IMG/VR virus record: IMGVR_UViG_3300031957_003564
Location: 1 to 35,843 of that record
Source of the DNA: a virus
Reading direction: 5' to 3' (one strand)
Length of the DNA: 35,843 nucleotides
Under the pieces are notes generated by a model, which was given only the letters and a program-made list of their open reading frames with translations, made no database searches and was not told where the DNA came from. Positions 12,491-29,826 of this stretch are shown here, piece after piece. Position 1 is the first letter of the stretch, and each line of letters starts with the position of its first letter. Both the position numbers and the translations under genes were made by a program.

Positions 12491-14374
12491 ATGGATTTTG
12501 GTAATCAGGTATTCAGTAATCAGTCAGTCAGTATCCCTGAAGGAACTCAGGTTGTATTTGTTTCAGATCTCTTTGTAGAGGACTATGTTGGTGGAGCAGA
12601 ACTGACTTCTGAAGCTCTTATTGAGAGTTCTCCGTTTCAGGTATTCAAGCTAAAGTCACATCAGGTTAGTCTCGAGATTCTGGAGCAGGGCCACGGTCTT
12701 CACTGGATTTTTGGAAACTTTGCAAACATGAAGCTCGATCTGATTCCGACGATCGTGGCAAACATGTCTTACAGCATTCTCGAGTACGACTTTAAGTTCT
12801 GCCGGTATCGTTCACCTCAGAAGCACCAGTTTGCTGAGGGCGAGGAGTGCAATTGCGATGATGAGATGCAAGGAAAGCTCGTCAGTGCCCTCTATCACGG
12901 TGCTAGATCCATCTGGTGGATGTCAGAGAGGCAGCAGGAAGAGTACTGGAAGAGATTCCCGTTCCTCAAGGAAAACAATCAAGTGGTCCTCAGTTCCGTC
13001 TTTGGGGATGCTTTCTGGATCAAGCTCAAGGAACTTCGAGAGAAGCATTCTGAAACAGAGAGAAGTGGTTGGATTGTCCTAGGATCACCAAGCTGGGTCA
13101 AGGGAGCCGAGGCTGCTGAGAACCGAGCAAAGGAACTCGGCGTTGATTACGAAGTTGTGTGGGGTCTACCGTATTCCGAACTTCTTGAAAAGCTAGCTCA
13201 GGCCGAAGGTTTCATCTACCATCCGGTTGGCTGGGACACATGTCCGAGAATGGTCATCGAGGCGCACCTTCTTGGTTGCAAGCTTGACCTTAACGACAAT
13301 GTCCTACACAAAGATGAAATCTGGTTTAATGATTGTGCGATGATCGATACTGAGTCGTACCTGTTTGCAGCTCGCGAGAGATTCTGGACTCAGATCAAGA
13401 ACGACTGGAACTGGCGTCCCACAATCTCAGGATACACAACAACACTCGACTGCATCAAGAACAAGTACCCGTGGAAGGAATCGATTGAGTCAATGCTCGA
13501 TTTCTGCGACGAGGTTGTTGTTGTCGATGGCGGTTCAACAGACGGAACTTGGGAGTTCCTCGAGGGATGGTCCAAGTCTGAAGCTAGGCTCAAAGCTTAC
13601 AAGAACGAGCGAGACTGGGATCATCCACGCTTTGCCGTGTTTGACGGTGCACAGAAGGCCTACGCAAGATCAAAGTGCACCAGTGACTTCTGCTGGCAGC
13701 AGGACGCGGATGAGATCGTGGTTCAGGCTGACGGACCAAAGATCTACAATCTGATCAAGCACTTCCCGCCTCAGGTCGATCTTGTCTCGCTCCCGGTCGT
13801 TGAGTACTGGGGCGGTCCGGAAAAGGTTCGAATGGATATCAATCCATGGAAGTGGAGAATCAGCCGCAACAAGCCGCACATCACCCACGGCATCCCTAGG
13901 GAGCTACAGAAGACCGATGAGGACGGTAACCAATATGCTGCCATGGGAACAGATGGCTGTGATTACGTGCATGCAGAAACTGGTGATCTGATCCCTCACG
14001 CAAGCTTCTATCACTACGATGCTCACAACCTAAGAGTTGCTGCATTGTCCGGTGACAAGGAAGCTTACGAACAGTACGCCGATTGGTTCAAGCGAAATGT
14101 TGAAGCACTCCCAGGCGTTCGCCATTACAGTTGGTTCAACATTGGTCGCAAGATTCGAACGTATAAGAACTACTGGTCGCGACACTGGCAGAGCCTCTAC
14201 GACATCGAGCAGAAAGATACAGCTGAGAACAACATGTTCTTTGACAAGCCGTGGTCCGAGGTTAGTGACGCTGAAATTGACGCGCTAGCAGAACGTCTAG
14301 CTAACGAGACAGGCGGCCACGTTTTCCATTCTAAGGTCGATTGGTCTAGACCAATGCCACACATCGAGCTTTAA
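12491..14374 (+). CDS. Two-domain glycosyltransferase (GT4-like + GT2)
   Basis: A 627-residue fusion. The N-terminal part (about 1-300) is GT-B-like: VFVSDLFVEDYVGGAEL at the start, WIVLGSPSWVKGAE, and HPVGWDTCPRMVIEAHLLGC (about 243-262), the acidic donor-binding region of GT4 enzymes. From about 306 a GT-A/GT2 domain starts: SGYTTTLDCI, EVVVVDGGSTDGTWEFL, and the metal-binding QQDADE at about 402-407. The last 120 residues contain a His-rich FYHYDAHNLR segment. Fusion suggests two consecutive sugar transfers. Start ATG 12491 follows AGGAATC. It opens a plus-strand run of 15 genes without gaps over 25 bases. Confidence 0.9.
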   Translation: MDFGNQVFSNQSVSIPEGTQVVFVSDLFVEDYVGGAELTSEALIESSPFQVFKLKSHQVSLEILEQGHGLHWIFGNFANMKLDLIPTIVANMSYSILEYDFKFCRYRSPQKHQFAEGEECNCDDEMQGKLVSALYHGARSIWWMSERQQEEYWKRFPFLKENNQVVLSSVFGDAFWIKLKELREKHSETERSGWIVLGSPSWVKGAEAAENRAKELGVDYEVVWGLPYSELLEKLAQAEGFIYHPVGWDTCPRMVIEAHLLGCKLDLNDNVLHKDEIWFNDCAMIDTESYLFAARERFWTQIKNDWNWRPTISGYTTTLDCIKNKYPWKESIESMLDFCDEVVVVDGGSTDGTWEFLEGWSKSEARLKAYKNERDWDHPRFAVFDGAQKAYARSKCTSDFCWQQDADEIVVQADGPKIYNLIKHFPPQVDLVSLPVVEYWGGPEKVRMDINPWKWRISRNKPHITHGIPRELQKTDEDGNQYAAMGTDGCDYVHAETGDLIPHASFYHYDAHNLRVAALSGDKEAYEQYADWFKRNVEALPGVRHYSWFNIGRKIRTYKNYWSRHWQSLYDIEQKDTAENNMFFDKPWSEVSDAEIDALAERLANETGGHVFHSKVDWSRPMPHIEL

Positions 14375-14376
14375 TC

Positions 14377-15120
14377 ATGACCCACTTTCACTTTGTGACG
14401 CCGGCCTACAACTGCGCAGAGAAAATAGAGCAAACACTGTGGTCTGTGTTTGGCCAAACATACAAGAATTGGTCGATGACGATCATCGACGATGTCTCAA
14501 CAGATGATACATCAAATGTCGTGAAGCGTTTTGTAGAAAAACACGGATTCAGTGACAGGGTAAACATTGTAAGAAGAGAAGAAAAGTACGGAGAAGTCAG
14601 AAACACTGTCGATATCTGCAGTGCTCTGGATCCTGACTTTGTTGTTGTGCGATTAGATGCCGGGGATTGGTTAACAGATTTAGGATGCCTTGAAGCGCTT
14701 TCCGTAGGATATGAAGCGCACAACCCAGCAGTGCTATGGACTGCCCACCGTTGGTCTTGGTCTGGCAAGAATATTTCCGGACCAATAAATCCCAACGTTT
14801 CTGTTTATGATCAACCATGGACAAGCAGTCATCTTAAAACATTCAGGGTTCGTGATTTCATAGGGCTGAATCCAAAGAATTTCTTGGACGATGATGGAAA
14901 GTTCATAATGATCGCATGTGATCAAGCCGTGTTTCTTCCGATGTTGGAAAGAGCGAGAAGGAACGGCCGTCCACTGGTTTATTGTCCCTCTGTTTTCTAT
15001 CACTACGATATCGATGTTGATCGAGGGAAAGAGATATTCCACACACCAAGAGCTAAGAAACAAAAAGCCAGCGCACAGTGGATTCGAAGTAGAGGTTATA
15101 TCGATGAGGATTCAGTTTGA
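14377..15120 (+). CDS. Family 2 glycosyltransferase
   Basis: A 247-residue GT-A enzyme. The N-terminus FVTPAYNCAEKIEQTLWSVFGQ and IIDDVSTDDTS are the classic GT2 nucleotide-binding motifs; VVRLDAGDWL (about 91-100) is the metal site, with D-x-G in place of D-x-D. The C-terminal part ends in a SVFYHYDID segment shared with the C-terminus of the preceding protein. It starts 2 bases after that gene's stop and overlaps the next gene by 17 bases. Donor and acceptor unknown. Confidence 0.88.
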   Translation: MTHFHFVTPAYNCAEKIEQTLWSVFGQTYKNWSMTIIDDVSTDDTSNVVKRFVEKHGFSDRVNIVRREEKYGEVRNTVDICSALDPDFVVVRLDAGDWLTDLGCLEALSVGYEAHNPAVLWTAHRWSWSGKNISGPINPNVSVYDQPWTSSHLKTFRVRDFIGLNPKNFLDDDGKFIMIACDQAVFLPMLERARRNGRPLVYCPSVFYHYDIDVDRGKEIFHTPRAKKQKASAQWIRSRGYIDEDSV

Positions 15121-15985
15121 AAACGTTGACCTAAATTCTAGAAGCGGACCGAACGGTTTTGGACTGAAGCTTGCAAGGCAATTCATGAGGGACGGACACG
15201 AGTTGACAAATGATCGACCAGATGTTCGTCTTTCATTTATTCAGAGCATGAACAACTTCAATCCAATGGTTCTTAGACTAGATGGAATTTATTTCAACTC
15301 ACTACAAGACTGGAAAGCGATGAACGAACCAATTCGTCGTAGTTACGATCACGCCTCGGCAGTCATCGTGCAGAGTGAGTTCGATAAGAAGCTAGTGTTT
15401 AGGTTTTTTGGTGAAAGAGAAAACGTACACGTGATCCATAACGGAACGGATACGAAGCTAATCAACAGCATTCAGGCACAGAATTTTAATCGGGAAAATA
15501 CCTGGATGTGTGCTTCTTCGTGGAGACCACATAAGAGGCTTGATGAAAACATTAGGCTGTTCCAGCAACTCAAAAAAGACGGAGACAGTCTTCTCGTTGC
15601 AGGAAGCAATGCGCGTGTTAGTGAAGGTACAAATGTTGAAGGCGTTCACTTCTTGGGCGACCTCAACTGGGAATCCATGATAAGTTGCATGAAGGCTTCA
15701 GCAAACTTCATTCATCTTTCATGGCTCGACCATTGTCCGAACGTTGTTGTGGATGCAAAGGCAGCCGGCTGTCGATTGCATGTTTCTGAGGCTGGAGGCA
15801 CTGCGGAACTTGCATCTTCGAGTGATCTCGTATACAAGGATGCACCCTTTAACTTTGACCCGGTGGAACTGTATAATCCACCAAACATGGTTTTTGATTT
15901 GCGCAAAAGTCTGTCGAATAGCAGAGATATTAGAATTTCTGTTTGTTCTGATCAATATTTGAAAGTCTTGGGAGATTTATTGTGA
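15104..15985 (+). CDS. GT4-like glycosyltransferase
   Basis: A 293-residue GT-B enzyme. The in-frame start at ATG 15104 has AGAGG about 8 bases upstream; reading from earlier starts would extend far into the previous gene. Recognisable parts: SRSGPNGFGLKLARQF near the start (acceptor side), VIVQSEFDKKLV, VHVIHNGTDTKLI, ASSWRPHKRLDENI at the domain junction, and LSWLDHCPNVVVDAKAAGC as the donor-binding region, corresponding to HPVGWDTCP in the fusion gene at 12491. Similar C-domains suggest these two genes share ancestry. Confidence 0.85.
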   Translation: MRIQFENVDLNSRSGPNGFGLKLARQFMRDGHELTNDRPDVRLSFIQSMNNFNPMVLRLDGIYFNSLQDWKAMNEPIRRSYDHASAVIVQSEFDKKLVFRFFGERENVHVIHNGTDTKLINSIQAQNFNRENTWMCASSWRPHKRLDENIRLFQQLKKDGDSLLVAGSNARVSEGTNVEGVHFLGDLNWESMISCMKASANFIHLSWLDHCPNVVVDAKAAGCRLHVSEAGGTAELASSSDLVYKDAPFNFDPVELYNPPNMVFDLRKSLSNSRDIRISVCSDQYLKVLGDLL

Positions 15986-16572
15986 GAACAGTAAGGGAAT
16001 ATGAAGCATACGAAGACTATGTTTCTCATCAAAAAGAAAAAACAAATGATCCAATACGTCGTAAAAAGTGGCTCGGTGAAGAATGGAACGTTAAGCTAGA
16101 AGGGTTCACCGGTATTTTTTCTTCTTTTCCTCAAATCTACTCTAGCGGTAAGGTGTGTCTTTGTTTAGGTGCTAGAACAGGGCAAGAGGTTGTTGCGTTA
16201 AATGGTCTTGGGGTTAATGCTACTGGAATCGATCTGGTTGAGCACAAGCCACACGTAATTGAAGGTGACATTCATGATCTTGAATTTGAAGATTGTTCAT
16301 TCGATATTGTCTTTAGCAACATTTTGGACCACTCTTTAGATCTCGAAAAAATGATGAAGGAAACGTTCAGAGTTCTGAAGCCTGGCGGAATTGCACATTT
16401 TCAAGCTCAGGTATTTGTGCATCAAGACGAATATACCGAAACATATTTCGATGATCCGGTTCAAGACTTAAGTTCCATCTTGCCTAAGCATACTTTTTTC
16501 CTTCTCGCAAGATCGATACCTCAAAACTTTGCTGCAATGAATTACGAAATGATCATTCAAAAAGTTTCTTAA
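15982..16572 (+). CDS. SAM-dependent methyltransferase
   Basis: A 196-residue class I methyltransferase. It has VCLCLGARTGQEVVAL (about 58-73) as motif I, GIDLVEHKPHVIEGDIHDL as the acidic loop, DIVFSNILDHSLD as motif IV, and FRVLKPGGIAHF as the typical post-IV strand. GTG 15982 overlaps the preceding stop (GTGA). Sugar or glycan O-methylation is the likely function because it lies between glycosyltransferase genes, but the substrate is not readable. Confidence 0.85.
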   Translation: MRTVREYEAYEDYVSHQKEKTNDPIRRKKWLGEEWNVKLEGFTGIFSSFPQIYSSGKVCLCLGARTGQEVVALNGLGVNATGIDLVEHKPHVIEGDIHDLEFEDCSFDIVFSNILDHSLDLEKMMKETFRVLKPGGIAHFQAQVFVHQDEYTETYFDDPVQDLSSILPKHTFFLLARSIPQNFAAMNYEMIIQKVS

Positions 16573-16596
16573 CCATAGCTTTAAGGAAACATTCGA

Positions 16597-17598
16597 ATGA
16601 AAATAACTTTCGTAGAAGTAAATCAGAACGTTAACACAGGAAGCTACAGAATATGGGTGAAAGATCTATCAACTACCTTAAGTCAGGTCGGTGTACAAAC
16701 CAGAATTGTTTCCAACAATGAGAGCATTGAATCAGATTCTGATGTGGTAATTTATGGAAAGTCGGCAACTCATCTTGCAAAGTCGTTTGAAAATACGAAT
16801 AATGCAAAAATTGGTGGTATAAATTTTCCTTGTGACTTTCATTCTAAAGATTTTGATTTTGTAATAGTCGGCTCTCACGAAGAAAAAATATCAATGAGCT
16901 ACTACGACAATGTGTTTGTCTATCCATTGATCGAAAGAAAATTCATGAATCTTCCGATTAAAAAACATGAAGACAGAAATCCTTTGAAAATTTGTTATCA
17001 CGGTCATCACCCTGGGCTGTTCAAGTTTAAGCCACACCTAAGAGATGCTTTGGACGAACTTTCGCATGAGATACCAATCGAGCTTCATGTCATAACAGGA
17101 CAAAAGCATTTTCCATGGAAGTTCGATCTCGGCAAACCATCGAAGGTGAATGTTTACATGCACGGATATGACGAAAATTTCTCTCGTATAGTATCATCAT
17201 GCGACATAGGCGTAGTGCCCAATGTTTGCGATATGAGATCTCTTTTTCCTGGAATTGAGAAGACGGTAAACCACAATGATCTAGGGCTGTACAACACAGA
17301 CTTCTTCATCAGATTCAAAAACAAAACAAATCCAGGAAGAGCATATGTTTTTTACCAGCATGGAATTCCAGTTATTCATGACTTAAGTCCGAGTAGCTTT
17401 GACTTCATGTCAAAGACAGGGGATTACATTTTTGCTCACGATAAGCTTTCTTGGATAAGGCAAATAAAGAGTCTTTGTTCAGCAGGTAGAAGGCAAGAAA
17501 TTTCTGAAAGGAATAGAAAAACATTCGATACTTGCTTTAGTCCTGTAAAACATGCTAAACTATTGTTAGAATTCATCAACAACATGGAAGAAATATGA
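16597..17598 (+). CDS. GT-B-fold glycosyltransferase-like protein
   Basis: A 333-residue protein starting MKITFVEVNQNVNTGSYRIW, a Rossmann-type N-domain whose NTGSYR resembles the glycine loop of GT4 enzymes. The second domain starts near LKICYHGHHPGLFKFKP and contains IGVVPNV and NPGRAYVFYQHGIPVIHD, equivalent to the donor-site segment. The usual E-x7-E is not clear. It follows a 24-base gap with an AAGGAA site. Specificity unknown. Confidence 0.75.
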   Translation: MKITFVEVNQNVNTGSYRIWVKDLSTTLSQVGVQTRIVSNNESIESDSDVVIYGKSATHLAKSFENTNNAKIGGINFPCDFHSKDFDFVIVGSHEEKISMSYYDNVFVYPLIERKFMNLPIKKHEDRNPLKICYHGHHPGLFKFKPHLRDALDELSHEIPIELHVITGQKHFPWKFDLGKPSKVNVYMHGYDENFSRIVSSCDIGVVPNVCDMRSLFPGIEKTVNHNDLGLYNTDFFIRFKNKTNPGRAYVFYQHGIPVIHDLSPSSFDFMSKTGDYIFAHDKLSWIRQIKSLCSAGRRQEISERNRKTFDTCFSPVKHAKLLLEFINNMEEI

Positions 17599-18350
17599 CG
17601 CAGAAGGTTGCTGAAAAGGGTTATTTGTACATTGCATATGGCGAGTCTTTCACAAAAGAAGCGCTGATGTCTATTGAATCTTTAAGAAGATTTACTGATC
17701 TACCGATTGCGTTGTTTACCGATCAGCCTCAGGAAGTAGTATCGGAAAATGTTTCACTATATGCTCAAATCAAAGTAAATCATCTCAGAGCAAAAGTCGA
17801 CTACATGGACATGTCTCCTTTTGAGAAGACTGTTTTTTTGGATAGTGACACTGTCATTGTTAGAAATTGCGATGACATGTTTGATTTGCTCGATCGTTTC
17901 GACGTTGCAATTGTAAACGACTATGCTAGAAAGAGAAAGAAGTATTCTGACATCGTTCCGGAATATGGCGAAATTCCTTATGCATTTTCTGAAGCAAATT
18001 CTGGCGTTATTGCATTCAACAACTCAACGAGAACCCAGACATTTTTAAAGATGTGGAAAGAGTATTTCTACAAGTACTTTCGAGAGACCAACGGGTGGGA
18101 TCAAATCAGTTTTAGGATTTCTTTGTGGAATAGTAACGTAAGAATTCACCACATGCCGTTTGAATACAATGTCAGAAGCAAAGAAAATAGAGAGAAACAA
18201 AGAAAGTATAAGCATGAATTTGGTGAGGATCACATGGAGTCCAGGATTATTCACATTCACTACGATTCAGAAATTCACAGAGGAGAATTTAATATTGACA
18301 ATCTCCAGCAACTAGAAGACATCGTTGTGTCTAAGGCAGTGGACTACTAA
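17595..18350 (+). CDS. GT8/glycogenin-like glycosyltransferase
   Basis: A 251-residue GT-A enzyme. GYLYIAYGESFTKEALMSI and LPIALFTDQPQ are followed by KTVFLDSDTVIV, whose D-x-D binds the metal and nucleotide-sugar, and by ANSGVIAFNNS, the region after the DxD in GT8-type enzymes. The C-terminus has RIIHIHYDSE, a HxH that could supply a second metal ligand. ATG 17595 overlaps the previous stop (ATGA). Confidence 0.82.
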   Translation: MTQKVAEKGYLYIAYGESFTKEALMSIESLRRFTDLPIALFTDQPQEVVSENVSLYAQIKVNHLRAKVDYMDMSPFEKTVFLDSDTVIVRNCDDMFDLLDRFDVAIVNDYARKRKKYSDIVPEYGEIPYAFSEANSGVIAFNNSTRTQTFLKMWKEYFYKYFRETNGWDQISFRISLWNSNVRIHHMPFEYNVRSKENREKQRKYKHEFGEDHMESRIIHIHYDSEIHRGEFNIDNLQQLEDIVVSKAVDY

Positions 18351-18934
18351 TGAGTTTTCAAAAATTTGTTGATGGCATAGCCAAGATGAAAAATTCTGGG
18401 TCTGGCTTAATGTCATTTAACCAGTATGTTTCGATTGGATATGTCATTTCAATAAAATCACCATGCAATCTTTTGGTTTTTGGGCTCGGAGATGAGTCAA
18501 GTCATTGGCAAAACTTAAACCGTGGTGGGAAAACTGTCTTTTTGGAAGACGATGAGACCTGGATTCAAAAATTTGAAGACGATAATCTAAATGTGCATCA
18601 TTGCGAATATACGACTTTAGCTAAGGATCACGAGGCAATACGGTTTGATGAAGAAAAGCTAAAGCTTTGCTTGCCAGAAGAAGTTGAGAATGTCGATTGG
18701 GATATTGTTATCGTTGATGCTCCGCTAGGTCACGGGCCACCAGGAAGACCCTATAAAGGACCTGGAAGGATGCAAAGCATATACGCCGCCAGCACTCTGC
18801 TTAAGGATGGCGGAATATGCATTGTTGATGATTGCGGTCGACTTATCGAAGCCAAGTATTCTTCCCACTATTTTGGCAAAGAAAACTTGATTAACCTTGT
18901 TGAGGAAAAAGTTGCAATATACAAGAAACAGTGA
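18350..18934 (+). CDS. GXM/DUF579-like polysaccharide methyltransferase
   Basis: A 194-residue protein that matches the DUF579 family, best known from plant glucuronoxylan 4-O-methyltransferases. Motifs: LLVFGLGDESSHWQNLNRGG and TVFLEDDETWI (41-72), HHCEYTT, WDIVIVDAP (117-125) with a G/P-rich loop, and GPGRMQSIYAAS (138-148). In plant and bacterial relatives the loop reads DAPxGxxxxxPGRM. If active, it would methylate O4 of a uronic acid, and a UDP-glucose dehydrogenase-like gene at 28876 could supply such sugars. The gene overlaps both neighbours. Confidence 0.82.
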   Translation: MSFQKFVDGIAKMKNSGSGLMSFNQYVSIGYVISIKSPCNLLVFGLGDESSHWQNLNRGGKTVFLEDDETWIQKFEDDNLNVHHCEYTTLAKDHEAIRFDEEKLKLCLPEEVENVDWDIVIVDAPLGHGPPGRPYKGPGRMQSIYAASTLLKDGGICIVDDCGRLIEAKYSSHYFGKENLINLVEEKVAIYKKQ

Positions 18935-19664
18935 ATTGGCTTCGCTAATTGCTGGTAAAACGGTTGCCCTCGTAGGCCCAGCAAAGTACATGGAAAATTC
19001 TTGTATGGGTCAAAAGATTGACTCTCACGACCTTGTGGTAAGAATCAATCGTGGCATAGAATCATCGTTTGTACATGGCAATGATATAGGAAGCAGGACG
19101 GACATTTACTATAGCTGTTTAATTGAAAGAGCTCAACAAACAGGGAATATCGATGCTGACCTTCTCCAGAGCGTAGGCGTCAAACATATCGTAGCACCAC
19201 CATCTTCAGACATGAAAGGGTTTTCTAGAGCACGTGAATTTCACCCCATGGTCAATAGAAAGAAAGTAGAACACTTGAACACCGAAATTCCGGTTTCAAT
19301 CATCGACCATAATTTCAACAATGATATTTCCTCTAGTGTAAGATGCAAGCCAAATACTGGATTTTTGGCAATTTATGATCTTCTAAGATACGATCCAAAA
19401 AACATTTTCATTTGTGGCTTTAGTTTCTACTTGGATGGTTTTATATCTGGCGAAAAGTCCGGAGTAGAAAAAGAAAAAAACTGTACAGAGCAGCAGTTTT
19501 CAGAAATGGCATTCTCATCAAAGAGACACGTTCAAGTCAACATGTGGAATTATGCCAAAGAAACCCTTCTAGCTCTTGAAAACGTTGAGCTTGATAGTAC
19601 GCTTCGAAGCATACTGATGATGAGAAATTTTAGCAAAATAGAATTTGGAAATATTTGCAAGTGA
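18912..19664 (+). CDS. GT29 sialyltransferase-like enzyme
   Basis: A 250-residue protein with the eukaryotic-type sialyltransferase motifs. Region L-like: VALVGPAKYMENS (18-30), GQKIDSHDLVVRINRG (33-48) and IGSRTDIYY (59-67). Region S-like: PNTGFLAIYDLL (147-158) with IFICGFSFY (165-173). A His follows in SSKRHVQVN, where family enzymes have their catalytic base. TTG 18912 is chosen because GAGG lies 6 bases upstream; TTG 18897 and 18900 are alternatives. It overlaps the previous gene by 23 bases. The next gene makes a CMP-sugar, the donor this family uses. Confidence 0.85.
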   Translation: MQYTRNSELASLIAGKTVALVGPAKYMENSCMGQKIDSHDLVVRINRGIESSFVHGNDIGSRTDIYYSCLIERAQQTGNIDADLLQSVGVKHIVAPPSSDMKGFSRAREFHPMVNRKKVEHLNTEIPVSIIDHNFNNDISSSVRCKPNTGFLAIYDLLRYDPKNIFICGFSFYLDGFISGEKSGVEKEKNCTEQQFSEMAFSSKRHVQVNMWNYAKETLLALENVELDSTLRSILMMRNFSKIEFGNICK

Positions 19665-20320
19665 TAGTATTTGTACCAATCAAGGAAAGATCACAGAGAG
19701 TTCCAGGAAAAAATTTTCGGACGATCGGCAGCGTTCCGCTGTATAAAAGGTGCTTGAAAAAGCTTACTGATCATGAAGTTTTTGTCGATACAGACAGCAA
19801 AAATCTTTTGTCCATGATCAGCAACGATAGTGATCTATCACATGTGACCGCATATGAAAGGCCTGAGCACTTAAAGGGTCATGAAATTTCCGTTTGCGAT
19901 CTCATCGAGAATTTTATCCAAAGATTCAACATCAGAAGCCACATGTGTCAAGTTCATGTAACTTCTCCTTTCCTGAACGTTGAGACCATCGAAAAGGCAT
20001 ACCGCGAGATGTTAGAAAACGAATACGATTCGATTGCGGCATGCAACAGATACCAAAATAGATTGTGGAGAAAAGAAGAATATGGTTACTGCCCTGTCAA
20101 TCACAACCCTTGTAAGCTTGAACAGACTCAAGACTTACCTGTCTTTTACGAAGAAAATTCTCTGTTCTACATTTTTGATTCGCAAGACTTTCTGAAAACA
20201 AAGCTTAGGATAGGAGTAAATCCGAGCTTCTATCCATGTACATTTCCAGAAAATCTAGACATCGATACGGAAGACGATTGGAAAATTGTGACTTCTGTTG
20301 CTAAAGGAGAAAGTTTGTGA
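19655..20320 (+). CDS. neuA: CMP-sialic acid/ulosonic acid synthetase-like cytidylyltransferase
   Basis: A 221-residue enzyme of the NeuA/KdsB family, which couples CTP with a keto-deoxy sugar acid. VIVFVPIKERSQRVPGKNF is the nucleotide-binding N-terminus; VTSPFLNVETI corresponds to the TSPL/M region; FYEENSLFYIF to the sugar-binding strand; and PENLDIDTEDDW is the metal-binding end (the IDxxxDxxxA/D motif). The start is TTG 19655 or GTG 19661, the latter overlapping the upstream stop as GTGA, as elsewhere in this operon. Directly follows the GT29 gene and precedes the aldolase. The symbol is given by family; the actual sugar could be a sialic, legionaminic or Kdo-type acid. Confidence 0.85.
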   Translation: MQVIVFVPIKERSQRVPGKNFRTIGSVPLYKRCLKKLTDHEVFVDTDSKNLLSMISNDSDLSHVTAYERPEHLKGHEISVCDLIENFIQRFNIRSHMCQVHVTSPFLNVETIEKAYREMLENEYDSIAACNRYQNRLWRKEEYGYCPVNHNPCKLEQTQDLPVFYEENSLFYIFDSQDFLKTKLRIGVNPSFYPCTFPENLDIDTEDDWKIVTSVAKGESL

Positions 20321-21003
20321 AATTAGCTTGGCAGCAAATTGCGTCAACAGTTGTATCTGACATATTGTGTGCCAATAAGTTGGACGGAGTAGTTCTAGAT
20401 ACTGAACACGGAATGTTCAATCCAGAGACCCTGTATGCATGCATTCAAGTGATCACATCGAATAGAAAGAAAGCATTTGTAAGACTGATCGATGTCGATA
20501 AGGCAACCGTTAGATCATGCCTCGATGCTGGAGCAGATGGAATCATATTTTCAACAATCGAAAGCTTGAAGCAGACAGACGATGCTCTAAGGTTCTCAAA
20601 GTACCCTGTCCAAGGAGGGTTCAGAGGTTTAGGACTTGTAAGGCAGAACAAGTGGGGCCTTAATGATCTGATCTCAAAGGAGCCTATTCTAATTGCTCAA
20701 ATAGAAACGTCGACTGGCGTTAAGAATATTTCTGAAATTTGGGATTCTAAAGTGTTTGACTACGTTATGGTCGGACCTTACGATCTTACGGCTAGCCTCG
20801 GATGTCCGGGGGATTTTGAACATGTTCTTTATCGACGCGCAGTCAGTTCAATAAAGCGTGTGGTTCCACATTATCGAATGGCTGTTCATGTACCATGTAA
20901 TGTTGAGAATGAGATAAAAAAGTACGATGGCTTTGGTATAATAGCTGTAGGAATGGACACAACATTCATTATTGAGAAGTACGAGGCAATACAAGATGCT
21001 TAA
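20317..21003 (+). CDS. HpcH/HpaI-family aldolase
   Basis: A 228-residue class II aldolase that normally adds pyruvate to an aldehyde to give a 4-hydroxy-2-keto acid. Motifs: DGVVLDTEHG (23-32), VRLIDVDKATVRSCLDAGADGIIF, IAQIETSTGV with the metal-ligand Glu, and MVGPYDLTASLG with the second acid ligand and the DLSxSLG-like motif. GTG 20317 overlaps the preceding TGA. Pyruvate addition to a sugar aldehyde would yield a 3-deoxy-2-ulosonic acid, the substrate class of the neighbouring cytidylyltransferase. Confidence 0.85.
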   Translation: MKLAWQQIASTVVSDILCANKLDGVVLDTEHGMFNPETLYACIQVITSNRKKAFVRLIDVDKATVRSCLDAGADGIIFSTIESLKQTDDALRFSKYPVQGGFRGLGLVRQNKWGLNDLISKEPILIAQIETSTGVKNISEIWDSKVFDYVMVGPYDLTASLGCPGDFEHVLYRRAVSSIKRVVPHYRMAVHVPCNVENEIKKYDGFGIIAVGMDTTFIIEKYEAIQDA

Positions 21004-21973
21004 TTTTGAAAATCTAGATGAGAAGTTTGTTAAAATTGTAAACTCAGGCGAATGGAAGGATCTTCAAGATAAGTTCAATAATTGTGACGACATCTATGTC
21101 TTGGGGCATGGAGGAAATTTAGCCGTTGCAGATCACGCAGCAGTTGACATAACCAGGCTATCAAACGGAACAAAGAACGCAATGTGTCCCGGTAGCGGAG
21201 TTGTTGCAACCTCTCTAATCAACGATTCTAGCTTCGAACAGTGGATGGTTCAGTGGCTATCGTGCAGGACATCGACTAGAACAAAGCGTCAAATGAAGCG
21301 TTCGCTGGTGCTAGGAGTTTCTTCATCAGGAAATTCAGTGGATGTCATCAAGGCTCTGCAGTGGGCAAACGATCGAGGAATGCACATCGCGGTTATATCG
21401 TCTCGAGATCTTCCTCTTGAAATTCCTAACTTGACAAAAGTTCTTCTTGGTGCTGAATACTACCATACGGCAGAAGTTCTGACGCTGCTTCTAACTTATG
21501 AACTAACCCATGGTTCTGGTAGCGTCTGCCCGCCAATTGGAAAGAATTCTCCTGACGACCTGAAGAAGATGAATTGGAAGGGCGGTAAAATTAGAAAGCA
21601 CAGCTATCCAGATGAGCAAGTGAATATTGGTATTGACTTTGATGGCGTCATCCACCGGTGCTCGAAGGGGTATTACGATGGAACAATATACGATTTGCCG
21701 ATAGATGGATCTCGCGAAGCTTTGCAAAAGCTTTCTGAAAAGTACACGATCATAATTCATACTTGCAAAGCAAAGCCCGACCGTGGCTTGGTGAATGGAA
21801 AAACTGGAACCGAGCTTGTTTGGGATTGGCTTGAGAAGCATGGCATGGCAAAATTTGTTTCAAAGGTGACATCAGAAAAACCAAGGGCGGTTGCCTACAT
21901 TGACGACAAGGGATTCCGCTTCTCCGGATGGGATGAATGTATCAAAGAACTTAAGGAAAAAAGTGTACTATGA
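20996..21973 (+). CDS. SIS-domain (GmhA-like) isomerase fused to HAD phosphatase
   Basis: A 325-residue fusion. Residues 1-195 are an SIS domain like sedoheptulose-7-phosphate isomerase: VLGHGGNLAVADHAAVDI near the N-terminus (GmhA: GNGGSAADAQH), VLGVSSSGNSVDVIKAL, and a C-terminal helix HTAEVLTLLLTYEL. From about 210 a HAD domain begins: GIDFDGVIHRC (nucleophile near 214), IIIHTCKAKPDR and AYIDDKGFRF. GmhA and GmhB act in ADP/GDP-heptose synthesis, so one polypeptide may catalyse two heptose-pathway steps. Start ATG 20996 has GAGG 9 bases upstream and overlaps the aldolase gene by 8 bases. Confidence 0.85.
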   Translation: MLNFENLDEKFVKIVNSGEWKDLQDKFNNCDDIYVLGHGGNLAVADHAAVDITRLSNGTKNAMCPGSGVVATSLINDSSFEQWMVQWLSCRTSTRTKRQMKRSLVLGVSSSGNSVDVIKALQWANDRGMHIAVISSRDLPLEIPNLTKVLLGAEYYHTAEVLTLLLTYELTHGSGSVCPPIGKNSPDDLKKMNWKGGKIRKHSYPDEQVNIGIDFDGVIHRCSKGYYDGTIYDLPIDGSREALQKLSEKYTIIIHTCKAKPDRGLVNGKTGTELVWDWLEKHGMAKFVSKVTSEKPRAVAYIDDKGFRFSGWDECIKELKEKSVL

Positions 21974-22902
21974 AAAAAATGAAAGTGTACATTATCACTT
22001 ACAAACGGTGTGGTGTTCTTAACGATACTCTGGATAAACTATTCGCATCAGACTTCTCAAAGCTAGACAATACTGAAGTTAACATCATCAACAATCACAG
22101 TGAGTTTAGTTTAGATGAAAGGTTCAAGAACAGTGTCAATGTTCTTCATAATGTTCTAAGACCTGACTGGTCCAACGGAAACGTGTCGGAGAATTACAAT
22201 CAGGCCTTTGTAAACGGTGTTGTAAGCCTTAGAAAACCGGATACTGAAATACTGGTTACACTTCAAAATGATGCAGTTGTTGACCCAAACTGGTGTGCTA
22301 ATCTCGACGTTCTTTTCAATGAGAAAGGATACGACTTCGTAACCGGACTCTGCGGTGACACTGTTGTGGCCTACAAACCTAGTGCCATAAAAAGCATTGG
22401 GATGTGGGACGAAAATTTGCCCGCCCAGTACAAAGAAACTGACTACTTCTTAAGGGCACTTAGCCTAAATAAAAAGAAGTCTTCATTGAACGACATCGTC
22501 CATGGTATTTTGCTAAATCACGAGCCCGACTATCCGATTGAGTCATTTGATGATAGAAACTTTGTGTCTGTGAAAAAGGATGGACAGAATTTAATTAAAA
22601 GAAAGCCTGACGATGCTGAACAGCTAGAAATCTGGAATGGATCCCGCGGGGGAATCTATAAGGTCACCGCATGGAATTACTTTTACAATAAGTGGGAGGG
22701 AACATGGGCTTACGGGAACCCTGTCCACACGAGCGATCAGCAGGGATGGATTAAGAACTGGTCTAATAGAATGATAGAAGATCCTCCGAGACCGGCACTA
22801 TCTAAAGTGAAGACTTACTTTAAGTACATCTATTTCGAAAAAGACTTGGACAACCTGGAGCAAAAGAACTACTTTTCTTACAGTCGGCCTCAAGGCCGAT
22901 AG
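21970..22902 (+). CDS. Family 2-like glycosyltransferase
   Basis: A 310-residue GT-A protein. KVYIITYKRCGVLNDTLDKL and INNHSEFS resemble the GT2 N-terminus (Asn-Asn-His replaces the usual Asp). LVTLQNDAVVDPNW is the metal-site region, with N-D in place of D-x-D. YKETDYFLRAL corresponds to the ED-type catalytic-base segment. The long C-terminal part is rich in Trp and Tyr and unlike common families. ATG 21970 overlaps the previous stop. A short hairpin TCGGCCT-CAAGGCCGA at 22884-22899 lies in its last codons, without a T tract. Confidence 0.75.
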   Translation: MKKMKVYIITYKRCGVLNDTLDKLFASDFSKLDNTEVNIINNHSEFSLDERFKNSVNVLHNVLRPDWSNGNVSENYNQAFVNGVVSLRKPDTEILVTLQNDAVVDPNWCANLDVLFNEKGYDFVTGLCGDTVVAYKPSAIKSIGMWDENLPAQYKETDYFLRALSLNKKKSSLNDIVHGILLNHEPDYPIESFDDRNFVSVKKDGQNLIKRKPDDAEQLEIWNGSRGGIYKVTAWNYFYNKWEGTWAYGNPVHTSDQQGWIKNWSNRMIEDPPRPALSKVKTYFKYIYFEKDLDNLEQKNYFSYSRPQGR

Positions 22903-22916
22903 GCAATAGAATTGTC

Positions 22917-23720
22917 ATGTTCATTAAAAAGCTGAAAGGTTTCTCTGGATGTGATGTAAGTTTACATATTGACGAAAAAACAGGTCGAAGGTTTGTAAGA
23001 AAAATATCATCTTCTATTGAATACAATGTTCGTCTAGAACGTCAAATGAAGAAGCAGATGACATTCTCAGACAAAGTGCTTAAAACTCCTGAAGTGTATA
23101 CTTCTGGAATGATCAAAGATAAGTTCTATTTTGATATGGAGTTTGTTAGAGGGGAGACTTTTAACAATTTTGTCTCAACAAACAGCCCGGGGAATGTGCT
23201 TCACGTTTTTGAGAAAATCATTCACTATTTGTCGGGTATCGACTCTAAAACGAAAGACATGTCTCACTTGATTGAGGACAAAATAGAGAGCCTTCGATCA
23301 AAAATAGATTCAAGTTTGCATGGCCATTTGGACTATTGCTTAGAATGTAGTTGGAAAAATGTACAGGAATCGATTAGCCATGGAGATTTAACGTTTGAAA
23401 ACATTATCGTCTACAAGACCGACATTTATTTGATCGACTTCCTCGACTCGTTTGTAGAGACAAAATACGTCGATTATTCCAAGCTTTTACAAGATATAGT
23501 TTTGATGTGGTCGTGGAGAAATAGTACTTCTCCTCCTTTCATAAAATGCATATTCTTGTATAACAAGATATGTGAAAGCCTAGGTGAAGAAGAAACAGAG
23601 ATGATTAAAAGATTACTAGTTCTGAACGTGTTAAGAATTGTGCCCTACGCCGATCAGCGCACATTGAAATACTTGAAGGGTCGGCTTGACTATTTAGAGG
23701 AAAGACTTGAATCATCATAA
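22917..23720 (+). CDS. APH-like small-molecule kinase
   Basis: A 267-residue protein kinase-fold enzyme of the aminoglycoside phosphotransferase/choline kinase type. FYFDMEFVRGETF is the hinge region, SHGDLTFENIIV (about 154-165) is the catalytic loop (HGDLxxxN) and YLIDFLDSF the metal loop (DFD-like). The N-terminal glycine loop is weak. Among sugar genes it may phosphorylate a heptose, choline or ethanolamine-type substrate. The next gene is a nucleotidyltransferase, so kinase plus nucleotidyltransferase resembles LicA-LicC or heptose-kinase/HddC pairs. Confidence 0.78.
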   Translation: MFIKKLKGFSGCDVSLHIDEKTGRRFVRKISSSIEYNVRLERQMKKQMTFSDKVLKTPEVYTSGMIKDKFYFDMEFVRGETFNNFVSTNSPGNVLHVFEKIIHYLSGIDSKTKDMSHLIEDKIESLRSKIDSSLHGHLDYCLECSWKNVQESISHGDLTFENIIVYKTDIYLIDFLDSFVETKYVDYSKLLQDIVLMWSWRNSTSPPFIKCIFLYNKICESLGEEETEMIKRLLVLNVLRIVPYADQRTLKYLKGRLDYLEERLESS

Positions 23721-24786
23721 ATACAATACAAAAACTACTCTGATAGTTCCGGCAGCCGGAAAGTCTAGTAGGTACCCAGGGATGAGACCTAAGTGGCTTT
23801 TGACTCATCCCAACGGTAAACTAATGATCGATGAGGTTGTGTCTTCTTTTAACCCACAAGAGTTTGATCGAGTCATCATAACAATTCTAAAGGATCATTG
23901 TGATCAATACGACGCGGATCAAGTGCTTAAGCAGGTTTTTGGAGATGCAATCGAAATATTGATACTTCCTGAGCCGACAAAGTCTGCCGCTGAAACAGTG
24001 TACAGAACTCTGGAAGACATGTCTGTGACCGGTCAGGTGGTAATCAAAGATTCCGACTGCCTAGTTGAGAGTCGACTATGTTTTGGCAACAACTATATTG
24101 TGGGCCTTAAAGTATCTTCGGATTCAAGTGTCGAAAGAATCCAGCAAAAGAGTTTCATCATTAAAAATGACGACGACATAGTGGTCGACATCATTGAAAA
24201 AGAGATCGTTTCAAACATTGTTTGTGTGGGCGTTTATTCAATGAACGCTAACGACTATAGAAGAGCGTATAACAGCATTTTAGAAAACAACGTCTACAAG
24301 AAGCTTAACGAATTGTACGTCAGTCATATTGTATCTTACTTAGTCGTCTGTCAAGGCACTGTTTTTGAGTATGTAGAAGCTGATAAATTCAAGGATTGGG
24401 GAACAAAAGAAGACTGGTATAAAGAGCTGGAAAAACATAACACTTACATCTTTGACATCGACGGAGTCATGTTAAGAAACTGTGGCAAGTTTGGTAAGAA
24501 AAATTGGTCGAACTATTTTGAACCAATTCAAGAAAATATCAATGTTGTTAAGCGTCTTTCTGATGAGGGACATGAGATCATATTCATGACTGCCAGGACT
24601 TCGGAATATTTGAATAGATTCAGAGATTTAATGGAAGAGGTGGGAATAAGATACAAGCAAATAGTTTCGGGTTGCAACCACGGTCGACGAATTATCATTA
24701 ATGACTTTGCAGCAACAAACCCCTATCCTTCTTGTGAGGCTTTGTCTATTAAGAGAAACGATGAACTGGACACTTACTTAAAATGA
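23707..24786 (+). CDS. NTP-transferase fused to HAD phosphatase
   Basis: A 359-residue fusion. The N-terminal domain (1-240) is a sugar- or choline-phosphate nucleotidyltransferase: LIVPAAGKSSRYPGMRPKW (12-30) with the nucleotide-binding Arg and Lys, VVIKDSDCLV in the position of the metal-binding Asp, and KDWGTKEDWY at its end. From about 249 a HAD domain follows: IFDIDGVMLRN, IIFMTARTSEY and IIINDFAA. The HAD resembles that at 20996. TTG 23707 has AGAGG 6 bases upstream and overlaps the kinase gene by 14 bases. Confidence 0.85.
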   Translation: MNHHKYNTKTTLIVPAAGKSSRYPGMRPKWLLTHPNGKLMIDEVVSSFNPQEFDRVIITILKDHCDQYDADQVLKQVFGDAIEILILPEPTKSAAETVYRTLEDMSVTGQVVIKDSDCLVESRLCFGNNYIVGLKVSSDSSVERIQQKSFIIKNDDDIVVDIIEKEIVSNIVCVGVYSMNANDYRRAYNSILENNVYKKLNELYVSHIVSYLVVCQGTVFEYVEADKFKDWGTKEDWYKELEKHNTYIFDIDGVMLRNCGKFGKKNWSNYFEPIQENINVVKRLSDEGHEIIFMTARTSEYLNRFRDLMEEVGIRYKQIVSGCNHGRRIIINDFAATNPYPSCEALSIKRNDELDTYLK

Positions 24787-25523
24787 TCATCAATATCAAT
24801 AAGGAAGATATCTGCAATCTGAGTAGGCTTCCTGTTAAGATGGAAGAAAATCCGTGTCATTTGACTGCTCTACAGTTGTGGCGCTGGGGTTCGAATCCCA
24901 CCACTCGTCTCAAGGACTGCCTCAGCTGTGAGGAGACACTGCTGTTTCAACATTACATGTCATACAATCCAAAGAGTCTTTATGATATGTATGGAGTTGT
25001 TGAAAAATTAAAAAGCTATTCTGTCAAGACACCCTTCTTACCGTGGATTCACTCTTATCCTGCTTCCAGTCACAGCGACATAGCTTTTATTTATCGAGAC
25101 TTACCTTTCATAGAGCGTCAGTGCAAGATGATTGCTTCTTTAGTAAGTTCGTTTCTTAAGAATGGATATAGACCTGAAGACTTTGGTAGACGAGAAAATA
25201 AGAACGAAGACTGGCCATGGCCTATTGATTGGCGTACCAAGGGACATATTGCTGGATACTTTCTTTCTAGTAAAGACAAGAAGAAGTTTTATGTGACTGC
25301 TGGAAATCATAGAGCGGCCGTGTTTTCTGCACTGTTTTCTAATCAGAAGATCCCGGTTGTGTATGAGAAAAAAGAGTTTATGAAACCGCAATATGCAGCT
25401 CAAAAAAGAGTCTTTCTAGAAGAGTATAGCTTAGAAGAAGTTAACGAGTGGCCGTCGGTAAAAAGCGGTTTCTTGTCAGGAAAAGAAGCAACTATGATAA
25501 CGGAGGTGTATCTGAATGGGTGA
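24783..25523 (+). CDS. ParB-like domain protein in the sugar cluster
   Basis: A 246-residue protein. The C-terminal segment YVTAGNHRAAVFSALFSNQKIPVVYE (about 171-196, cut here into motif GNHRAA and IPVV) matches the ParB/Srx fold signature GxHRxxA. The N-terminal part has Cys in DCLSCEE and WRWGSNP. Its start overlaps the previous stop. ParB-like proteins occur in polysaccharide loci with unknown function, where they may act as kinases or nucleotide hydrolases rather than in partition. The function here is not readable. Confidence 0.65.
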   Translation: MIININKEDICNLSRLPVKMEENPCHLTALQLWRWGSNPTTRLKDCLSCEETLLFQHYMSYNPKSLYDMYGVVEKLKSYSVKTPFLPWIHSYPASSHSDIAFIYRDLPFIERQCKMIASLVSSFLKNGYRPEDFGRRENKNEDWPWPIDWRTKGHIAGYFLSSKDKKKFYVTAGNHRAAVFSALFSNQKIPVVYEKKEFMKPQYAAQKRVFLEEYSLEEVNEWPSVKSGFLSGKEATMITEVYLNG

Positions 25524-26226
25524 CTACACAATTGAAGATATCAGAAGAAAAGTTCAAGACTTATCCCGAGACCAAGAGTGGAATCACTTTTATGATCTCA
25601 AAGGTGTGAGAACACGCTCACAACATGTAAACAGCCCCGGGTATAACACTGCTAAGTGGAAACGTCTCGAGCCAATTTTGTCTAAAATTATTGATGAAGA
25701 AATTAACAGTGTTCTAGATGTTGGCTGCAGCGACGGATACTACAGCATCGAATTAGCTAAATTGCACAAGAACATTGCCGTAACGGGAATTGACCTCGAT
25801 GACTTGAGAATCCAAAGGTGCAAATTTGTGAAGAAAATTTTCCAAATTCAAAACTCCAGCTTCAAGACCGCCGACCTCTATGACTTAATGAGCTCAAAAA
25901 AAACACATGATATTGTTATGGGCCTCGGGCTTCTCCACAGGGTTCCAGATTTGGAGCAATGCATCAGAGATTTGTGCAGCATGGCGAACAAATTTGTGGT
26001 ATTCGAGTTTAAGACCCTGAAAACCAGTGAACCCTCTTTCTTGCATAAGGGTGGTGAAACAAAGTCTAATTGCCTAAATGGTCTTTACAAAATACCTTCA
26101 ATTTCCTATGTTAAAAATGAGATGGCCATTCATGGATTTTCCAGCTATATTGCAGTGGAAGACGATAATTCAGATTTGAAATACCCTAGAACAATCATGG
26201 TAGGGAAAAATGAATCAAGTATTTGA
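25516..26226 (+). CDS. SAM-dependent methyltransferase (CmoB-like)
   Basis: A 236-residue class I methyltransferase. SVLDVGCSDGYYSIELA (about 65-81) is motif I, TGIDLDDLRIQR the acidic loop, IVMGLGLLHRVPDLEQ motif IV. An N-terminal helical region precedes the fold, as in CmoB-like proteins. A Cys- and Lys-rich stretch (KGGETKSNCLN) follows. ATG 25516 lies inside the preceding gene's end. Likely methylates a glycan; a tRNA target, suggested by the resemblance to CmoB, cannot be excluded. Confidence 0.82.
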   Translation: MGDYTIEDIRRKVQDLSRDQEWNHFYDLKGVRTRSQHVNSPGYNTAKWKRLEPILSKIIDEEINSVLDVGCSDGYYSIELAKLHKNIAVTGIDLDDLRIQRCKFVKKIFQIQNSSFKTADLYDLMSSKKTHDIVMGLGLLHRVPDLEQCIRDLCSMANKFVVFEFKTLKTSEPSFLHKGGETKSNCLNGLYKIPSISYVKNEMAIHGFSSYIAVEDDNSDLKYPRTIMVGKNESSI

Positions 26227-27043
26227 GAAGTATAAGAACGTTCATGAAGGTAAAAGGGCTTTCCTAATCGCAAACGGCCCCAGTTTGAATCAAACGAACT
26301 TAGACTTGATCGAAAATGAAATTTCGTTTGCAATGAACAGAATTTCTCTAAAATACGATCAGACTTCATGGCGCCCCACTTATTACCTGTTTTCGTCAAC
26401 AAACGTGACGCCTTCAAAACCGTGGAGTCAAGAATGGCAATCTTCAGTAAGGCAGGCAATAGCAGAGAATCGAACAACTAGTTTTGTTGCTGAGAGATTT
26501 AGGCGTTACATAGACCCTTTGAGTGAGTGTTCTCGCGTCGAATGGTTTGACAGTATGTCGGAAAGAAAGCCAGATAAATTTGGAAATATTCACCCTTCAT
26601 GTTTTTCAACGAATGTCGTCGAAAGAATTGACAAGACTGGAACAACAATGAATCTAGCCTTGCAGCTTTGTTTTCATATGGGCATCTCTGAAATTGTATT
26701 TGTGGGTGCGGATTTAGGTTGGACTCGAGATGAAGGAACTAACAATGATCCTAACCACTTCTCAAAAAACTATGTCGCAGAAATTACAAAGCCAGAAAAA
26801 GCGAACAATCAAATGAGGAACGTTCACTCACTCTCAGGTCTTCATTTCAAGATGCATAAGCCTGATACAAAAATCTACAATGCAAGTAAGCGAACAGTGT
26901 TAGACGTGTATCCAATCATAGATTTTGAGCGTTATGTTGAATGTGGTGAAATTGTTTTGCTAGATGGAAAAAGAGATAACGCAAAAAAATTCTGGGAATC
27001 CCCGCCTCAATATGGGTATTTTGATGAATTCAGCAAGCGCTGA
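26210..27043 (+). CDS. DUF115/Maf-like or sialyltransferase-like Rossmann protein
   Basis: A 277-residue protein. RAFLIANGPSLNQTNLDLI (16-34) is the motif shared by DUF115/MptE-like proteins, the flagellin glycosylation (Maf) proteins and GT42 sialyltransferases. Then comes FAMNRISL, and TMNLALQLCFHMGISEIVFVG with ADLGWT closes the Rossmann core. It overlaps the methyltransferase gene by 17 bases and is the last gene of the gapless run. A glycosyltransferase role fits the context, but the family's biochemistry varies. Confidence 0.72.
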   Translation: MNQVFEKYKNVHEGKRAFLIANGPSLNQTNLDLIENEISFAMNRISLKYDQTSWRPTYYLFSSTNVTPSKPWSQEWQSSVRQAIAENRTTSFVAERFRRYIDPLSECSRVEWFDSMSERKPDKFGNIHPSCFSTNVVERIDKTGTTMNLALQLCFHMGISEIVFVGADLGWTRDEGTNNDPNHFSKNYVAEITKPEKANNQMRNVHSLSGLHFKMHKPDTKIYNASKRTVLDVYPIIDFERYVECGEIVLLDGKRDNAKKFWESPPQYGYFDEFSKR

Positions 27044-27165
27044 TTAGCTCAAGAAAATTTGAAAAAAAACAACTTGTAAAGTATATTTTCTGGACCTAAA
27101 GGAAAATAAAGCTTTCGAAAGCTAATGCTTCAAAACTATGCTTATGGACTAAAATAGGAGAAAAA
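27044..27165 (+). promoter_or_regulatory. Promoter and palindrome upstream of the SDR epimerase
   Basis: This AT-rich gap holds a strong promoter: TTGAAA (27059-27064), 17 bases, TATATT (27082-27087). Transcription would begin near 27094, leaving a leader of about 70 bases. Within it lies the perfect palindrome AGCTTTCGAAAGCT (27110-27123), a plausible repressor site or weak hairpin. The ribosome site AGGAG (27156-27160) precedes the GTG start at 27166. Confidence 0.65.
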
Positions 27166-28026: not shown

Positions 28027-28039
28027 CCAAGGCTTCTGC

Positions 28040-29772: not shown

Positions 29773-29775
29773 GCA

Positions 29776-29813
29776 TTAACTTATTATCGAGGCTAGGTTA
29801 CAATGACCTAGCC
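29776..29813 (+). promoter_or_regulatory. Promoter overlapped by a perfect dyad (operator-like)
   Basis: TTAACT (29776-29781), 17 bases, TACAAT (29799-29804). The perfect inverted repeat GGCTAGGT (29791-29798) / ACCTAGCC (29806-29813) has a 7-base centre containing the -10 box. A protein bound here would block the promoter. As RNA the repeat makes an 8-base-pair hairpin followed by only TTT, so it could also be a weak terminator of the dehydrogenase gene. Confidence 0.5.
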
Positions 29814-29826
29814 TTTGGTGTATCTA

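Follow-up and report, generated by a model that had tools for sequence, protein, structure and literature searches.

In the window analyzed here, the whole 35,843-base stretch of a contig from an uncultivated marine phage (IMG/VR record IMGVR_UViG_3300031957_003564) that carries phage-type helicase and PhoH genes, four overlapping genes are found at positions 18,897–21,973. They encode, in order, a GT29-like transferase, a NeuA/PseF-like cytidylyltransferase, an HpaI-type aldolase and a fusion of SIS (phosphosugar isomerase) and HAD (phosphatase) domains. Judged from the sequences, these genes probably form a module for a cytidine monophosphate (CMP)-activated ulosonic acid, in which the predicted pyruvate aldolase would replace the phosphoenolpyruvate (PEP)-dependent NeuB/KdsA step. 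What appears to be new is that HpaI-type aldolases are repeatedly coupled to CMP-acid synthetases, both in viruses and in abundant marine bacteria; searches of the open-licence literature turned up no paper that links these aldolases to the synthesis of CMP-acids. To our knowledge, the established CMP-ulosonic acids (sialic, pseudaminic, legionaminic and 3-deoxy-D-manno-octulosonic acid, Kdo) all depend on NeuB/KdsA-type synthases that use PEP.

A first-pass annotation of this DNA had described the first three genes, in this order and with overlaps. The open reading frames, starts and Pfam scores agree with that description: the overlaps within the trio are 4–10 nt, all three genes lie on the plus strand, and the profiles PF00777, PF02348 and PF03328 are all matched above their curated cut-offs. 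The viral nature of the contig was missed, as was the fourth overlapping gene, SIS-HAD, which is usually part of the unit.

Linkage of the aldolase to CMP-acid synthetases

Relatives of the window proteins, mostly 40–60% identical to them, were gathered by IMG/VR profile searches. The set started from the aldolase comprised 121 viral loci, reduced to 52 non-redundant loci, 44 of which extend 6 kb or more to either side (full context). In 38 of the 44 full-context relatives, the aldolase has a CMP-synthetase, belonging to any of three kinds, within 6.5 kb. Among all 52 loci, the synthetase lies within 60 nt of the aldolase in 14, SIS-HAD is no more than 100 nt away in 27, and 30 contain GT29-like genes. 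A scan with the synthetase alignment returned 32 loci; all 26 members of the window's clade have an aldolase within 10 kb, and none of the six distant homologues (0/6) has one within that distance. The gene-neighbourhood search that the first-pass annotation had proposed thus recovers the trio in divergent viral contigs, and because their proteins are mostly just 41–61% identical to those of the window, the association is not attributable to chance. No useful close relatives were found in cultured phages, and the trio has no PHROG match.

The six full-context loci without linkage belong to one subclade, in which the aldolase is accompanied by a ferredoxin-type protein, a thiamine diphosphate (ThDP) enzyme and another HpaI-like protein with a weak match. 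A second type of glycan-associated aldolase module, lacking a CMP-synthetase, is observed near position 10000 in the loci L145, L150, L151, L152, L154 and L001, and also in the cyanobacterial L280; it contains a ThDP enzyme, a weak HpaI-like protein, a 4Fe-4S/DUF561-like protein and a small HAD protein, and its phage aldolases have Phe212 (E. coli HpaI numbering). Separately, 29 of the 52 viral loci (for example L106:9549-10004) encode, immediately 5′ of the aldolase, a 151-residue protein that starts MILIAHRGN; it is phosphodiesterase-like by eye and has no Pfam match.

To look for the pairing in bacteria, 297 SAR11-order, 399 Pseudomonadota and 292 cyanobacterial genomes were searched with the aldolase alignment at strict thresholds, which gave 27 matches and 25 loci with flanks. 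In 15 of these 25 loci, a KdsB-like synthetase lies within 2.8 kb of the aldolase, mostly with a gap of −7 to +25 nt. The linked aldolases (111–182 bits) come from SAR11, a Prochlorococcus-size cyanobacterium and Pseudomonadota, whereas the weaker relatives (106–119 bits), which have catabolic surroundings and no synthetase, serve as a contrast. The linked KdsB-like genes score 200–399 bits with a model for which ten of them supplied the seed, and the seed members therefore match it by construction; for the members tested, the KdsB assignment is supported by NCBIfam. An epimerase, a HAD phosphatase, a 2-hydroxyacid dehydrogenase and a 6-phosphogluconolactonase-like gene are often added in these loci. 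This pairing with a different synthetase is an independent recurrence of the phage linkage. The viral and bacterial versions are joined by the phage locus L148, where a KdsB above the TIGR00466 cut-off (169.5 versus 155.2) takes the place of the PseF-like synthetase, abuts the aldolase and is followed by SIS-HAD.

The bacterial pairing emerged only from the search started with the aldolase. A scan of bacterial genomes with the window cytidylyltransferase gave 79 loci, mostly 20–25% identical, and a window-type aldolase is a neighbour in none of the 79. The best of these relatives (L017 and L018, 35% identical) are partnered by a 2-hydroxyacid dehydrogenase and a short-chain dehydrogenase/reductase (SDR), not by an aldolase. 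These two loci, from SAR116 and Actinomarina genomes, present another CMP-acid context, with a cytidylyltransferase/2-hydroxyacid dehydrogenase pair and an SDR nearby (L017:9986-11597, L018:9989-12219). Most SAR11 carriers of the aldolase have a canonical KdsA and a second KdsB, which makes the linked KdsB-like gene a paralogue; the aldolase was on this ground rejected as a replacement for KdsA in cells without Kdo. In G464 (a 3.74-Mb contig) and G922, no KdsA scores above the cut-off, and it is the aldolase-linked gene that matches kdsB best.

The first-pass annotation had also remarked that NeuB is not seen here, and this holds more widely: within these contig fragments, a NeuB family synthase is found in none of 16 records (the window and its 15 nearest viral relatives) and KdsA (DAHP/KDO8P synthase family) in none of the 11 nearest viral records. 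Viral NeuB and the aldolase co-occur in five contigs. There, NeuB has its own cytidylyltransferase within about 1.5–3 kb, which leaves the aldolase-linked synthetase without another obvious source of acid. In the viral locus L183, a set of CMP-synthetase, SIS, HAD and GT29 stands beside a PEP-using enzyme of the 3-deoxy-D-arabino-heptulosonate 7-phosphate (DAHP)-synthase type instead of the aldolase, which suggests that the aldolase fills that slot in its relatives. An identification of the L183 synthase as KdsA was rejected, as it is of the DAHP type. The locus (L183:7957-12858) further includes an aminotransferase, a cytidylyltransferase with a cupin-like tail and separate SIS and HAD genes, and its GT29 is more typical (63.6 bits over 190 residues).

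Catalytic residues of the aldolase and features of its partners

The aldolase scores 68.8 bits against PF03328 (cut-off 25) and matches HpaI (PDB ID: 4b5s, 8.4e-21) over nearly its full length (residues 5–225). Equivalents of the E. coli HpaI residues D42, E44, H45, R70, D84, E149 and D175 are all present and invariant in the window aldolase and its aligned relatives, and this catalytic set is kept in all compared aldolases except for a Glu44-to-Gln change in one catabolic relative. The window enzyme therefore shares the fold family and every metal and catalytic residue with the HpaI, GarL and RhmA aldolases. In contrast, its gene context is glycan-related rather than catabolic, and its pocket differs: the residues equivalent to Ala174 and Leu212 of E. 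coli HpaI are Tyr155 and His191, and the same replacements are seen in the synthetase-linked aldolases. Its scores are far under the equivalog cut-offs for HpaI (91.1 versus 368.8), GarL (82.1 versus 406.75) and RhmA (71.9 versus 441), and in a tree, the viral relatives are placed outside the catabolic HpaI/GarL/RhmA clade (98/91 support).

The residue at position 212 tracks the linkage. In the full-context phage loci, a synthetase accompanies all 38 aldolases with His (38/38) and none of the six with Phe (0/6). When phages and bacteria are combined, 49 of 50 His loci are synthetase-linked versus 1 of 11 non-His loci, and the sole linked non-His locus (L283) has a truncated frame in which this position is missing. 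Fisher's test gives p ~1e-9, a value that is overstated because the sequences are related. Catabolic proteins of the HpaI/GarL/RhmA type mostly keep Leu212, the exception being L278, which has His212 but Ala174. In A. baumannii HpaI, the equivalent residue (Leu214) lines the aldehyde pocket (PMC8560999). By condensing pyruvate with D-glyceraldehyde, that enzyme forms a 2-keto-3-deoxy sugar acid at about 40 times the rate at which it cleaves it (PMC8560999), and a review of the family names glycolaldehyde, glyceraldehyde, lactaldehyde and erythrose among the acceptors used with most success (PMC7610986). These properties make condensation with a sugar aldehyde by an HpaI-type aldolase plausible.

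The cytidylyltransferase scores 62.8 bits against PF02348 (cut-off 22.6) and matches a CMP-Neu5Ac synthetase (PDB ID: 1qwj, 2.4e-10). Its DIDTEDDW segment, which holds the metal-binding DxD motif, and its TSP motif are invariant in ten aligned sequences. The NCBIfam equivalog cut-offs are missed (best PseF, 64.3 versus 205.7; KdsB, 16.5 versus 155.2), and the substrate class is consequently not fixed by family.

The GT29-like protein scores 36.2 bits against PF00777 (cut-off 23), with sialylmotif L alone aligned by Pfam; a PDB search also returns ST3Gal1 for this motif. An AlphaFold (AF2) model of the protein has a predicted local distance difference test (pLDDT) score of 87, and its 30 best PDB fold matches are all GT29 (top 2wnb, E = 2.9e-7, template modelling (TM) score 0.49); the match to the bacterial GT42 enzyme CstII is weak (1.4e-3). 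A PNTGF...GF segment, with an invariant His211, is a candidate for motif S, and no segments are assigned to motifs III and VS. The GT29 genes of the relatives L183, L212, L213 and L155 also exceed the PF00777 cut-off, and GT29 profile matches to designed pentatricopeptide repeat (PPR) proteins were discarded as multi-repeat artefacts. The first-pass annotation had called GT29 a mainly eukaryotic family. Its occurrence outside eukaryotes is not new, since bacterial GT29 proteins, described as lacking a transmembrane domain and the sialylmotif disulphide cysteines, were reported in 2018 (PMC5811610, in which the word virus is absent). Unlike those, the window protein is viral, short and aldolase-linked, and Pfam scores sialylmotif L alone in it. 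Membership of GT29 is also no proof of sialic acid, because loss of the Arabidopsis GT29 protein RCKT1 strips Kdo from rhamnogalacturonan-II (RG-II; PMC12168206). This plant RG-II Kdo transferase (MGP2/RCKT1) is a precedent for a GT29 that moves Kdo rather than sialic acid (PMC12168206), although it is a eukaryotic Golgi enzyme whose acid comes from a KdsA-type pathway.

Two further arrangements of GT29 genes were observed. In L139:6834-8432, beside a CMP-synthetase and the aldolase, a GT29-like domain is fused to a 2-hydroxyacid dehydrogenase of the kind that is a separate gene in bacterial aldolase loci. In L213:9872-13685, GT29, SIS, SDR, a 3-dehydroquinate-synthase-like cyclase and a cytidylyltransferase stand in a row and possibly make a nucleotide-activated cyclitol.

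The SIS half of the fusion folds like GmhA (PDB ID: 2i2w) in a model of moderate confidence (pLDDT 76), and the NCBIfam gmhA cut-off is not reached (30.8 versus 209.45 bits). The phosphosugar motif is kept, but not every zinc ligand: of the zinc and catalytic ligands of GmhA, His61 is retained, Glu65 is replaced by Asp, and Gln172 and His180 are not alignable. The HAD half matches phrog_1238.

Proposed pathway and alternative explanations

In the proposed pathway, the SIS domain would make an aldose phosphate from which the HAD domain would remove the phosphate. The aldolase would then add the enolate of pyruvate to the aldose and form a 3-deoxy-2-ulosonic acid, most likely a Kdo-like or heptulosonate-like acid. 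Conversion of this acid to its CMP form by the cytidylyltransferase would release pyrophosphate, which would drive the reversible aldol step forward, and the GT29-like enzyme, whose activity is predicted from its family, would pass the acid to the glycan that the remaining cluster genes assemble. The core of this idea, an aldolase that makes the acid which the CMP-synthetase activates, was already put forward by the first-pass annotation. As a prediction it is supported by the linkage in divergent phages and independently in bacteria, the absence of NeuB and KdsA-family synthases from the window and its nearest records, the intact catalytic residues and the pocket change that tracks the linkage. 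The acid itself is more probably Kdo- or heptulosonate-like than sialic acid, with C7, C8 or C9 possible.

Compared with the Kdo pathway (KdsD-KdsA-KdsC-KdsB), the roles of isomerase, HAD phosphatase, CMP-synthetase and CMP-acid transferase correspond one for one, and one phage version uses KdsB itself. In contrast, the window has a pyruvate aldolase in place of PEP-dependent KdsA at the C–C bond-forming step, its isomerase is GmhA-like and not KdsD, and dephosphorylation would need to come before condensation or together with it. With the NeuB-NeuA, PseI-PseF and LegI-LegF pathways, it shares a cytidylyltransferase nearest to PseF/NeuA and a transferase of the sialyltransferase family; the lack of a NeuB-type synthase in the window and its 15 nearest records and the missed PseF cut-off set it apart.

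More broadly, we lean slightly toward the view that Tyr174/His212 HpaI-type aldolases are dedicated makers of 3-deoxy-2-ulosonic acids from pyruvate for CMP activation. They would provide a PEP-independent entry to CMP-ulosonic acids that SAR11, picocyanobacteria and other bacteria use in their surface glycans, and that large marine phages carry to re-sugar the host or the virion. Such a route would alter how clusters of this kind are annotated and would explain some of the wide range of sugars made by marine phages; it would also predict acidic sugars not yet seen on SAR11 and other marine bacteria. For the plant acid 3-deoxy-D-lyxo-heptulosaric acid (Dha), PMC12168206 still gives both the gene and the nucleotide form as unknown; enzymes of the aldolase type would be among the candidates worth seeking there.

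Several observations weigh against the aldolase route. Most linked loci have the synthetase 0.6–6 kb away and not adjacent, and 11 of the 52 viral loci have a distant synthetase only. The Phe212 exceptions form a single subclade, so the pocket test is not phylogenetically independent. SIS-HAD is missing from about 20 of the 52 relatives, which led to its rejection as an invariant part of the module and means that either the supply of the acceptor differs or the proposal for it is wrong. Pyruvate aldol addition can also run backwards, and the roles best established for HpaI enzymes are catabolic ones. Finally, seven of eight bacterial aldolase carriers encode NeuB, and most encode KdsA too, which provides those cells with another source of acid. 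This last point favours an arrangement in which the cytidylyltransferase and the GT29-like enzyme use acid from a host NeuB or KdsA and the aldolase serves another branch, either making a different 4-hydroxy-2-oxo acid or decorating the same glycan. We regard that arrangement as unlikely but deserving of weight, given the many other sugar genes in the phage clusters and the six viral loci that pair the aldolase with a ThDP enzyme and no synthetase. However, the pairing survives a swap of the synthetase family (PseF-like versus KdsB) and persists in genomes without KdsA, the viral NeuB genes carry their own synthetase, and the ThDP-linked aldolases differ in the pocket residue.

It is very improbable that the aldolase is degradative, splitting 2-keto-3-deoxy sugar acids of the host to pyruvate for phage replication, with its location in a glycan operon incidental. 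The characterized HpaI, GarL and RhmA enzymes are catabolic, and E. coli garL and rhmA lie in sugar-acid catabolic operons, whereas this aldolase sits translationally coupled within a glycan operon and has been conserved along with CMP-synthetases across dozens of loci. The viral relatives of the enzyme, outside the catabolic clade in the tree, lack Leu212, and neither a sugar-acid dehydratase nor a transporter is seen near it. A variant of the aldolase route, with a different product, is that the acid is a C7 dicarboxylate of the heptulosaric type (Dha-like) made from pyruvate and a C4 aldehyde acid. Carboxylated aldehydes are natural substrates of HpaI and GarL, and the analogous slot of L183 holds a DAHP-type, C7-forming synthase; GT29 is also the family proposed for plant Kdo/Dha transfer (PMC12168206). 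We nevertheless assign this wholly inferential variant a low probability, since the KdsB above its equivalog cut-off beside the aldolase in one phage points to C8 and no oxidase that could form the second carboxylate was recognized.

The surrounding glycan cluster

The four genes lie within a longer run of glycan genes (Table 1). The IRX15/GXM-like gene immediately 5′ of the GT29-like gene is also found upstream of GT29 in the viral loci L007 and L008, and its presence in one cluster with a UDP-glucose dehydrogenase-like gene makes a methylated uronic acid in the glycan possible.

Table 1 Coordinates of the module and of neighbouring features in the window
Feature	Position	Strand	Remarks
Glycan biosynthesis cluster	12491–32219	+	About 20 kb; glycosyltransferases, methyltransferases, epimerase, UDP-glucose dehydrogenase-like
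IRX15/GXM-like protein (plant glucuronoxylan methyltransferase family)	18350–18934	+	PF21729, 107 bits
GT29-like (sialyltransferase-family) CMP-sugar transferase	18897–19664	+	TTG at 18912 is a plausible alternative start; about 255 residues
NeuA/PseF-like cytidylyltransferase (CMP-ulosonate synthetase)	19655–20320	+	GTG at 19661 is the likely start
HpaI-type class II pyruvate aldolase, proposed ulosonic acid synthase	20317–21003	+	GTG start, clear AAGGAG just upstream
SIS (phosphosugar isomerase) and HAD phosphatase fusion	20996–21973	+	ATG at 20996; proposed supplier of the aldose acceptor
Second sialyltransferase-like/DUF115 gene	26210–27043	+	Same cluster; PF01973, 35.3 bits; phrog_4603 'alpha-2,3-sialyltransferase', 1e-7
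UDP-glucose dehydrogenase-like gene	28870–29772		Same glycan cluster

The second sialyltransferase-like/DUF115 protein is kept in several relatives. At 22917–24786, a gene for an APH-type kinase is followed by one for a nucleoside triphosphate (NTP)-transferase/HAD fusion, an arrangement that recalls a kinase/nucleotidyltransferase pair. Elsewhere in the window, the protein encoded at 7019–8362 weakly matches a phage GroEL (phrog_5725, 2.6e-10).

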